Positions 56,017 through 59,057 of a stretch of 64,000 nt of DNA are shown piece after piece (position 1 is the stretch's first letter; every line of letters starts with the position of its first letter). The notes beneath the pieces were generated by a model. That model worked only from the letters and a program-made list of their open reading frames with translations, was not told the DNA's origin and made no database searches. The stretch spans positions 1-64,000 of the forward strand of contig NZ_LEKH01000013.1 of the NCBI RefSeq assembly GCF_001029505.1. The letters are read 5' to 3'. Source of the stretch: Rubrobacter aplysinae (GTDB lineage Bacteria > Actinomycetota > Rubrobacteria > Rubrobacterales > Rubrobacteraceae). Both the position numbers and the translations under genes were made by a program.

Positions 56017-56461
56017 TTAGTATTAGTATTTAAAACCTTAATTCATTATCGTAGTAGTAGTAATAGGCCCTGTGGATATGTGGATAACTCGAATTATCCT
56101 CTTTACATAAGCCCAAAACCTTGAACTGCTCGTGTGGATAAGTCTGTGGATAACTCCCCAAACCCTGTGGACAAAATGTGGATAAGTGCCGAGTTATCCA
56201 CAGCACAGACTTATCCACAAAATTATCCACAGACTTATCCACAGATTTTACCCCTCTTATCCACAGACTTATCCACAAGATATATGTGTGTCTCCGTATC
56301 TAAACTGCAATGATCGTCTTCCTGCGACAACTTTATCCACAGTTTGCCAAACTTATCCACAAAAACTGTGGATAAAGTACCCGAGGTGTGGATAAAAAGG
56401 AAAGGCTTATCCACAGGCCAGGGAGGTGCTGTGGACAGATTGTGGATAAGTCTGTGGATAA
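56017..56461. other. oriC: Replication origin oriC, main DnaA-box region
   Basis: Non-coding dnaN-dnaA spacer. It contains 17 exact copies of TTATCCACA or its complement, starting at 56079, 56133, 56145, 56177, 56194, 56211, 56223, 56235, 56257, 56269, 56333, 56353, 56367, 56387, 56407, 56441 and 56453, plus variants at 56071 and 56166. An A+T-rich stretch (56017-56050) at the dnaN end is the likely unwinding element. Box orientation switches twice: left boxes read TGTGGATAA, the middle group reads TTATCCACA, and the right end is mixed. Confidence 0.95.
56052..56066 (+). other. DnaA-trio element of the basal unwinding system
   Basis: Five consecutive trinucleotides TAG TAG TAG TAA TAG, followed by GCCC (67-70), a near-consensus box TGTGGATAT (56071-56079), and a perfect box (56079-56087). 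On the other side lies A+T-rich DNA (56017-56050). This order (boxes, GC-rich clamp, trios, unwinding element) matches the system defined in Bacillus subtilis. Confidence 0.8.
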
Positions 56462-56557: not shown

Positions 56558-57952
56558 TTATCGTTTGCTCTTTACGTGGTACGTGATCTCGTGAATCTGG
56601 TTGAAGGCGTCGCGGTCCTTGTTTATGAGGTTGGCTATCTTGGCGGTGGCGTGCATTACGGTGGAGTGGTCTCTTCCGCCGAACGCTTTTCCTATCTTTG
56701 GCAGGGATTCGTCTGTAAGCTCGCGGCAGAGATACATGGCGACCTGGCGCGGGTAGGCGAATGGCCGGGTGCGGCTCGTGCCTGTAAGGTCCGGCTTTGA
56801 GATGCCGAAGTAGCGGCAGACCTCGTGCTGGATCAGCTCCACCGGTATCTCGCGGTAGGCGGAGTCGGTAAGGATGTCCTTGAGGACCTCTTCCGCGAGC
56901 TCGACGCTCAGGTTGCGGCCGTAGAGCGAGGAGTAGGCGAGAATGCGCACCAGGGCGCCTTCGAGCTCGCGGATATTGGTGGACACCTTGGATGCGATGA
57001 AGGTCAGGACCTCGTCGTCTACCTCCAGGCTGTCGGCTATCGCTTTCTTGCGCAGGATGGCGATCCTGGTCTCCAGGTCCGGTGGCTGGATGTCCGTTAC
57101 GAGCCCCCACTCGAAGCGGCTCACCAGCCTGTCTTCCAGGGTCTTGATGTACTTGGGGTGCCGGTCCGAGGCGATGACGAGCTGCTTGTTCTCCTCGTAC
57201 AGGGCGTTGAAGGTGTGGAAGAACTCCTCCTGTATCCCCTCTTTCTTCTCCAGAAACTGGATGTCGTCTATGAGAAGCACGTCGTTCTCGCGGTAGCGGC
57301 GCTGGAAGTCGAGCGGTTTGTTTTCCCGGATGGAGTTGATGAAGTCGTTGGTGAACTGCTCGCAGGTAACGTAGCGGATGCTCATTGACGGGTTGTGATC
57401 CTCGACGTACTGCGACACCGCGCGCAAGAGGTGGGTCTTGCCGAGCCCGACGCCACCATAGATAAAGAGCGGGTTGTAGACCACGCCCGGCGTCTCCGCG
57501 ACCGCGAGGGTGGCCGCGTGGGCGAAGCGGTTACCGGCCCCGATCACGAATGTGTCGAAGGTGTATTTCGCGCGCATCGAGCGGGGCGCCCGGGCGTTGC
57601 GCACGGACTCGGCCGCCTCACCGGCCGCACCCGCCGCGCCTGCCTCGGCGTCCTCCACGGCGACCGCCGCTTGCGGGGCCTGTGGGGCGCTATTCTTCGA
57701 GGAGCCGACGCTCACCACCAGAGAGCTCTCTTCCTTATCCAGCACGGAGTCGAGCGCCTCTTCCAGAAGCGGCTTGAATCGGCTCTCTATGTACTCCTTT
57801 GCGAAGGAGTTGGGGACCGAGATCTCCAGACCGTTCTCGTACAGGTTCACCGGCTTGGTACCCTCGAACCAGACTCGCAGGGAGGGGGCGTTGATGTGCT
57901 CGGAGACCTGATCCAGCACCTCCGTCCACACCTCTTCCATGCGCCGGGGCAT
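56558..57952 (-). CDS. dnaA: Chromosomal replication initiator protein DnaA
   Basis: A 464-residue initiator. Domain I (1-85) has [11 protein letters not shown]; a short Ala/Glu-rich domain II follows. AAA+ domain III has [28 protein letters not shown] and [11 protein letters not shown]. Domain IV binds DnaA boxes through [11 protein letters not shown]. Start is ATG at 57952 or the adjacent GTG at 57955; an internal ATG at 57940 (MEEVW) is also possible. It follows directly on the stop of the GHKL/winged-helix gene (TAAGTGATG). Confidence 0.97.
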
Positions 57953-57955
57953 CAC

Positions 57956-58765
57956 TTACTGGACCCAGTTCTGGATGATCGCCGCGGCAAGGTCTTTGCC
58001 TAGCGGGCTGATCATACGCTTCCCGGTCTCGTCTCCGTGTAGAAGTCCCTGCTCCTGTAACAGTGAGAGATCCCGGTACGCGGTGCTGACGCTTATCTCA
58101 AGACGGTCCGCCACCGTGGAAGGCCCCACCTCGCCGTACTCGAGCACCGACAGCAGTACCTTCTCCTGCCGGTCGGAGATCTCCATCCTCGGTACGGCAT
58201 CCGGGTATCTCCTGTGAGACTCCTGAGACTCTCTCGGCTCCGAGAGCCTTGCCTGACTACCGGCCTCTTCTGCCTCATCAGAGCGGGGCGCGGAGATCGT
58301 GGTTACGGTCCCGCCGCCCATATTATCTTCGATGGTAACCGTGCCCCCCACTCTCTGAACCGCCGCCCGGGCCATCCCGAGACCCGCCCCGACGCCGCGT
58401 ATATCTCGTGTCGCCGACGTGGCGCTGGTGAACCCGAACTCGAAGGCTCGCTCTTTTTGCTCGATGCCCGGACCCTTGTCAGAGACCCGCACACTACAAC
58501 CGCCGTCGAAGATCGAAATTACCACGCCTTTGTACTCCGCGTGGACGAGATTCTCAACGACCTCCCGCACCGCTTCTTCGGGTAGACGGCCACCGAGATC
58601 GCGTACCCTAGAGCAAACGAGCCTGGAGAACTTGTCCGCCGCTGCCGGGTAAGTGGAAGCCGCCGCTTCAAGGATCTCCGGCGTTCCTGTATCCGGGTAG
58701 ACGGCGATACGAACGCCGACGCCGGCACCTTCCGCGTCCCCTCTATCTCTCTCCGCGTAGATCAT
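57956..58765 (-). CDS. GHKL-ATPase / winged-helix regulator upstream of dnaA
   Basis: A 269-residue soluble protein with two domains. Residues 20-160 are a Bergerat (GHKL) ATP-binding fold: N box EVVENLVHA with Asn-72, G1 DKGPG (96-100), G2 GVGAGLGMA (124-132), G3 GGGT (150-153). It has no histidine-kinase phosphoacceptor domain, like anti-sigma kinases of the RsbW type. After a Ser/Glu linker (165-190), residues 195-262 form a winged helix (STVADRLEISVSTAYRDLSL). Its stop abuts the dnaA start, so the two are co-transcribed. I infer an ATP-dependent regulator of initiation; the function is not known. Confidence 0.8.
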   Translation of the reverse strand: MIYAERDRGDAEGAGVGVRIAVYPDTGTPEILEAAASTYPAAADKFSRLVCSRVRDLGGRLPEEAVREVVENLVHAEYKGVVISIFDGGCSVRVSDKGPGIEQKERAFEFGFTSATSATRDIRGVGAGLGMARAAVQRVGGTVTIEDNMGGGTVTTISAPRSDEAEEAGSQARLSEPRESQESHRRYPDAVPRMEISDRQEKVLLSVLEYGEVGPSTVADRLEISVSTAYRDLSLLQEQGLLHGDETGKRMISPLGKDLAAAIIQNWVQ

Positions 58766-58776
58766 CCCTTACCAAG

Positions 58777-58782
58777 GTTATA
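58777..58782 (-). promoter_or_regulatory. -10-like element (TATAAC) of the regulator-dnaA operon
   Basis: TATAAC on the minus strand lies 11 nt before the ATG at 58765, giving at most a very short leader. Confidence 0.45.
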
Positions 58783-58848
58783 CGTGCACCCCCTCGTGAC
58801 GCTACACCCCAAGAGAAGAAAGCAGTGTTTTGCAGGCTATTAAAAAAG

Positions 58849-59057
58849 TTATCCACATACTTTTCCACAACCTGTGGACAAAACGTGAAAAAGTTGTGGA
58901 AAACTTCGTAAAACCGTGGAAGATTCTCTGTACAGTCTGCCCTCGTTAGGGTTGTGTATGCCCATATTTACGAAACAAAAACGTTGTTTTGCAGGATTTT
59001 TCTCTGAAATGCTTCTGGAGGGTGTTGGCGGTGATGCTGGAGAGCTCTTGTGGATAA
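58849..59057. repeat. Second DnaA-box cluster between the dnaA operon and rpmH
   Basis: Two exact boxes, TTATCCACA at 58849 and TGTGGATAA at 59049, and three one-mismatch boxes at 58861, 58873 and 58895. They lie in an A+T-richer 380-bp spacer (58766-59145). This resembles the bipartite origin layout of Bacillus, where boxes flank dnaA. The cluster could regulate dnaA and rpmH transcription. Confidence 0.75.

Follow-up and report, generated by a model that had tools for sequence, protein, structure and literature searches.

A GHKL-type ATP-binding and winged-helix protein at the head of the dnaA operon, a strong candidate for a chromosome replication regulator that has been overlooked

What is a gene for an ATP-binding domain joined to a winged helix doing at the head of a dnaA operon? 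The question arises from a stretch of 64,000 nucleotides (the window) belonging to a genome that we take, from its gene content, to be Rubrobacter-like. The first gene of the dnaA operon in this window (57956..58765, minus strand; ATG start, TAA stop included) encodes a protein of 269 aa, here called GHKL-wHTH, and dnaA itself (56558..57955, minus strand; TIGR00362, E=2e-162) lies immediately 3' of it in the same frame. The junction reads GTC CAG TAA GTG ATG CCC, with the TAA abutting the dnaA start, which is either the GTG at 57955 or the ATG that is the next codon. A preliminary description of this locus had already placed the stop codon against the dnaA start, and the reading of the junction bears this out. 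Neither Pfam nor NCBIfam has a family for this protein, no NCBIfam equivalog fits it, and no description of it was found in the open-licence literature on the gene upstream of dnaA, on GHKL-wHTH regulators or on DnaA regulators. Known RNA elements (Rfam) were absent from the region between 51 and 64 kb of the window. A mobile origin of the gene was considered and rejected, phage matches being absent and plasmids giving only weak, partial kinase-like matches.

The larger of the two domains (residues ~16-160; 58286..58720, minus strand) is a GHKL (Bergerat) ATP-binding domain in which the N, G1, G2 and G3 boxes are all intact, as the preliminary description had stated. The Pfam model HATPase_c (PF02518) matches residues 63-161 at E=4.3e-15 (56.6 bits against a cut-off of 26.4) and is matched by every one of 73 diverse homologues. 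The N box reads E68-x3-N72-x2-H75, the G1 box D96-x-G98-x-G100 and the G2 box G124-V-G126-A-G128-L129, and the G3 region contains G140/G141, N148 and G152. Twelve of these positions (E68, N72, H75, D96, G98, G100, G124, G126, G128, G141, N148 and G152) are invariant among the 73 homologues. The AlphaFold2 model of this domain has a pLDDT mostly >90, and its Foldseek matches are the catalytic (CA) cores of histidine kinases. By motif, fold and invariant residues the domain is thus a member of the GHKL superfamily, and these residues suggest that it binds ATP. A phosphoacceptor domain (DHp/HisKA-type) is not among the Pfam matches listed for the protein, nor does a HisKA-type domain appear among the 25 Pfam families most often matched by the 73 homologues. 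As far as these matches go, the protein is not a histidine kinase in the sense of a DHp/HisKA domain with its phosphoacceptor histidine, which agrees with the earlier statement that no kinase domain is present. The model of the RsbW/SpoIIAB type (HATPase_c_2, PF13581) gave E=0.012 and 16.1 bits against a cut-off of 27.4, and just 4 of the 73 homologues matched it at 0.01; neither this score nor the gene neighbours described below place the protein among the SpoIIAB/RsbW anti-sigma factors. The term "anti-sigma-kinase-like" used in the preliminary description was loosely right at best, because both the HMM and the fold put the domain nearer to the histidine kinase catalytic domain.

A variable and mostly disordered linker (residues 161-193; 58187..58285, minus strand) connects this domain to a C-terminal winged helix (residues 194-269; 57959..58186, minus strand). 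Several Pfam wHTH models (TrmB, HTH_20, IclR and DeoR) match residues ~194-257 with E values of 4e-5 to 4e-4, slightly under their cut-offs, at least 59 of the 73 homologues match a wHTH model, and the PDB matches to this part of the profile are IclR- and repressor-type structures. The recognition helix (S227 T228 A Y R231) and the wing (G248 K249 R250) are kept across phyla. R231 does not vary among the 73 homologues, and the three wing residues vary little or not at all; the linker and the N-terminal tail vary freely. In the AlphaFold2 model, built with the 73 homologues, residues 16-160 and ~196-268 form confident domains on either side of a disordered linker, and a beta hairpin at the N terminus leads into the GHKL domain (mean pLDDT 87, pTM 0.60). 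The winged helix, which the preliminary description had seen joined to the ATP-binding fold, is accordingly present with its fold, recognition helix and wing, and would be expected to bind DNA. In one Coriobacteriia-type group (L147-L150) both domains are retained and the linker has undergone a P/Q-rich expansion into a long P/Q/Y-rich stretch, an arrangement suggestive of two tethered heads. The DnaA of this group is very divergent, and the window DnaA recognises only domains III-IV of it.

The closest sequence and fold matches are the CA domains of histidine kinases (HK853, WalK/YycG, CpxA), which have the same Bergerat fold and the same N, G1, G2 and G3 boxes. GHKL-wHTH differs from them in that no phosphoacceptor domain, membrane part or sensor part was detected, and in its N box (E-x3-N-x2-H) and the wHTH that follows. 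SpoIIAB and RsbW have an N box of the E-x3-N type with a nearby histidine, as GHKL-wHTH does, and are likewise stand-alone cytoplasmic GHKL domains (HATPase_c_2), but GHKL-wHTH scores far under the PF13581 cut-off, has an additional wHTH and is linked to dnaA rather than to sigma factor genes. Among the top 50 fold matches, the sole PDB entry that aligned well beyond the ATP domain was DIP2311 (3lmm; 292-325 columns, TMq 0.37-0.44), with a poor superposition (rmsd 14-18 A, 14% identity) and a protein twice as long. DIP2311-type proteins are, we presume, COG2865, with the order AlbA_2, HATPase_c_4 and wHTH; the window protein has no Pfam match to AlbA_2 or HATPase_c_4 and so does not have the N-terminal AlbA_2 of that type. 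TrmB, IclR and DeoR regulators share the wHTH fold and a similar recognition helix, and GHKL-wHTH has a GHKL domain where those have a ligand domain. The folds of DiaA/HobA, SirA, YabA, Hda, Soj and DnaD are different from that of GHKL-wHTH. No Pfam match to known families of DnaA regulators was obtained, and the 25 NCBIfam matches listed (of 78) are kinases and one CARF protein, in keeping with the previous view that SirA, YabA, Soj, DnaD and Hda are unrelated to this protein. None of these regulators is known to be a GHKL protein with a constant link to dnaA; a common role could be the taxon-specific control of DnaA (PMC13270200, PMC5448010). GHKL-wHTH fails the histidine kinase, anti-sigma and AlbA_2-type tests and matches no known DnaA regulator, and is in this sense outside the described families. 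GHKL domains, winged helices and the idea of lineage-specific DnaA regulators are each well known.

The link to dnaA extends far beyond the window. A scan of GTDB contigs, from which the best 80 of 151 relatives were kept, together with whole-genome searches, provided a total of 215 loci, for which we use the taxon labels of the records, many of them MAGs. The carriers belong to Actinomycetota (Coriobacteriia, Aquicultoria, Humimicrobiia, Hakubellales, Thermoleophilia and unclassified members), Sysuimicrobiota, records labelled Armatimonadota/Armatimonadetes, ANGP1, UBP13 and Bacillota. In 209 of the 215 loci (160 distinct proteins) dnaA, in the same orientation, is found immediately 3'. Five others have the GHKL gene as the last one on a circular chromosome that starts with dnaA, and the remaining one ends at a contig end. 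Conservation of the neighbourhood had been proposed as a check on the preliminary description, a gene found mainly away from dnaA being the outcome that would speak against it; dnaA turned out to be the partner everywhere that this could be tested, with no exception among the 215 loci. The other flank is occupied by rnpA, yidD and yidC where these are present, and the rnpA-yidD-yidC / dnaA-dnaN block is conserved as a whole. A non-exhaustive search identified no sigma factor or anti-anti-sigma neighbours in the loci examined, and the other explanation that had been raised, a known sporulation or sigma regulator, thus found no such link, just as the PF13581 score (16 against 27.4 bits) offered it none. 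In whole-genome searches of 19 genomes the true match had E<1e-90 and the runner-up was an ordinary kinase-like protein at ~1e-11 or weaker, a gap that indicates one copy per genome; a relocated or duplicated GHKL-wHTH gene was never found in these surveys.

Carriers account for 158 of 397 Actinomycetota genomes, 38 of 43 in the Sysuimicrobiota/"Armatimonadetes" group (the phylum of L093, L070 and CSP1-3), all three of UBP13 and 32 of 300 in the large phylum that holds the Bacillota-labelled genomes. Nine genomes without the gene were tested from within the carrying groups; dnaA, too, went unmatched at 1e-60 in all nine, and the contig with dnaA is therefore probably missing from their assemblies. 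These nine (G009, G031, G006, G055, G421, G422, G426, G428 and G446) are drafts, some of them >90% complete. In genomes that have dnaA and genuinely lack the GHKL gene, the region upstream of dnaA contained nothing related to it. To our knowledge, the rpmH-dnaA interval of Streptomyces and Mycobacterium is without any gene. On a DnaA tree of 113 rows, whose root and deep branches are uncertain, the presence of the gene required 5 changes; 500 shuffles averaged 18.7, and none of them was as low. This pattern fits an old vertical inheritance with loss in one large Actinomycetota clade, from which the gene is missing. One genome (G050; L233:457-1300) has kept dnaA and lost the GHKL gene, which is present in the same-genus G078 (L163). 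At least one lineage has hence lost the gene and kept dnaA, which means that the gene is not universally essential.

The explanation that we favour, with somewhat better than an even chance of being right, is that GHKL-wHTH is an ancient, dedicated partner of dnaA and acts as an ATP-switched, DNA-binding regulator of dnaA and/or of origin activity. It draws on the gene order, the architecture, the conserved residues of the ATP site and the recognition helix, the single copy and the DnaA boxes of the promoter, all of them shown by the analysis. The synteny offers strong circumstantial support and makes the protein a strong candidate regulator of chromosome replication, one so far overlooked.

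A first rival, possible and distinctly less probable, is that the protein is a partner of the DnaA protein, a co-initiator or brake comparable to DiaA/HobA or SirA, in which the ATP-bound GHKL head contacts DnaA, the winged helix provides a second surface for protein or DNA, and transcription is not the target. The adjacent or overlapping codons within one operon favour a matched production of both proteins, and the long flexible tether of the Coriobacteriia-type members would suit such contacts. Pairwise protein distances point in the same direction. Their partial correlation over 59 genomes was 0.34 with DnaA, 0.33 with DnaN and 0.03 with YidC, and over 49 genomes (ten very divergent ones left out) it was 0.33, 0.08 and 0.06, respectively, which lends weak support to a coupling of GHKL-wHTH and DnaA. 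The distribution may be relevant as well. The DnaA domain I dimer is, according to PMC13270200, conserved in the class Actinomycetes and not in other classes. Set beside the large gene-less Actinomycetota clade, this raises the possibility that the GHKL gene is missing where domain I self-dimerises; the coincidence of the gene-less clade with the domain-I-dimerising group would be a correlation of two surveys that overlap incompletely. Against a contact with DnaA stands the predicted fold of the in-frame read-through GHKL-DnaA chain (40 paired rows), whose pTM of 0.41, given with no inter-domain error estimates, yields no confident interface but does not amount to a negative result, and so does the retention of a DNA-binding signature in the recognition helix and the wing.

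The second rival, which we hold to be just as possible, concerns the promoter: a plain autoregulator of the operon, that is, a wHTH repressor or activator of the divergent rpmH and GHKL-dnaA promoters in which the ATP domain is an energy sensor and which has no role at the origin. A putative -10 (TATAAC; 58777..58782, minus strand) and, 17 bp from it, a putative non-consensus -35 (GTAGCG; 58800..58805, minus strand) are suggested by the sequence and by the alignment of Rubrobacteria, with TATAAT for the -10 in a same-genus relative (L005). The putative -10 hexamer is just 11 bp upstream of the ATG (58763-58782 of the window), and the GHKL-dnaA transcript may for this reason be leaderless or nearly so. 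Three DnaA boxes follow upstream (58849-58857 and 58861-58869, plus strand; 58895-58903, minus strand; span 58849..58903) and a further one is located at 59049..59057 (minus strand). The promoter boxes are flanked by two direct copies of a CTGCAAA-N6-TTT-type element. The proximal one (CTGCAAAACACTGCTT; 58820..58835, minus strand), a candidate operator, has a CTGCAAA core that is kept in Rubrobacteria, and the distal one (58979..58994, minus strand), ~160 bp beyond, is an exact match and conserved in Rubrobacteria promoters. The whole order, a box triplet at ~-117/-105/-93, then CTGCAAA-N6-TTT, then the putative promoter (GTAGCG-N17-TATAAC in the window), is conserved in Rubrobacteria, where both AAA-N6-TTT and TGCAAA occur in 24 of 24 promoters.

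This arrangement and the IclR/TrmB/DeoR-like recognition helix are what an autoregulator would call for. The exact element is found at six sites in the genome, with the two-element cluster at the GHKL-dnaA promoter. A CTGCAAA-N6-TTT regulon was rejected, as the five other exact genomic sites have no evident link and look like chance. Apart from DnaA boxes, no DNA motif common to all lineages was found; CTGCAAA is confined to Rubrobacteria and the wHTH is kept across phyla, a mismatch that speaks against the plain autoregulator, and the element is best regarded as no more than a candidate winged-helix site. An inverted DnaA-box pair was present in 86 of 140 regions upstream of the GHKL gene, in many lineages. 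Since 8 of 19 genomes without the gene also have this pair ahead of dnaA, it was rejected as a specific GHKL-wHTH operator. DnaA boxes that are found upstream of dnaA even where the GHKL gene is absent suggest that DnaA autoregulates the whole unit. The spacer between dnaA and dnaN contains 17 more boxes (56079..56461, no strand assigned), all perfect TTATCCACA, and is likely the main part of oriC. Including the four upstream of the GHKL gene, the window has 21 DnaA boxes where 0.4 would be expected. Boxes in this spacer and upstream of the GHKL gene make up a bipartite origin layout.

Much further down in probability is a signalling protein of the partner-switching anti-sigma or histidine kinase type, unrelated to replication and sharing the dnaA promoter by chance. 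The ATP domain is indeed nearest to histidine kinase catalytic domains, but no phosphoacceptor domain was detected, the PF13581 score is weak, the gene is never away from dnaA, and the non-exhaustive search of the loci examined revealed no sigma or anti-anti-sigma gene beside it. Least likely of all is a neutral hitch-hiker kept beside dnaA solely by a frozen origin gene order, as the conserved rnpA-yidD-yidC / dnaA-dnaN block might suggest, since its catalytic and recognition residues are invariant across phyla, other lineages have no gene at the site, and neither relocation nor duplication was ever found.

A dedicated ATP-switched regulator of dnaA and/or the origin could work as follows. 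GHKL-wHTH and DnaA would be co-expressed from a promoter bearing DnaA boxes, and the winged helix would fix GHKL-wHTH to the DNA between rpmH and dnaA and at the origin, in Rubrobacteria possibly through the CTGCAAA elements. Once the GHKL domain is loaded with ATP, a dimer or a contact with a partner would form through the flexible tether, and this contact would raise or lower dnaA transcription and/or the assembly of DnaA at the origin, so that initiation would track the level of ATP or another signal. The ATP binding, the dimerisation, the DNA target and the effect on DnaA are all predicted steps of this scheme. A bolder form of it, which we put forward tentatively and consider rather unlikely as a whole, would have an origin factor of several Terrabacteria phyla, always made with DnaA and tethered to origin DNA, gate DnaA assembly by ATP-dependent dimerisation, and would have it lost in the model Actinomycetes with a self-dimerising DnaA domain I. 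If true, it would represent an additional nucleotide-switched component of bacterial initiation.

The regulation of DnaA is understood chiefly in E. coli, B. subtilis, Caulobacter and Helicobacter, and for many bacteria no encoded DnaA regulator has been identified (PMC5720831). A single-copy gene kept beside dnaA across several phyla and bearing the signatures of ATP and DNA binding is a candidate for the timing of replication in neglected lineages, including the Coriobacteriia of the gut.
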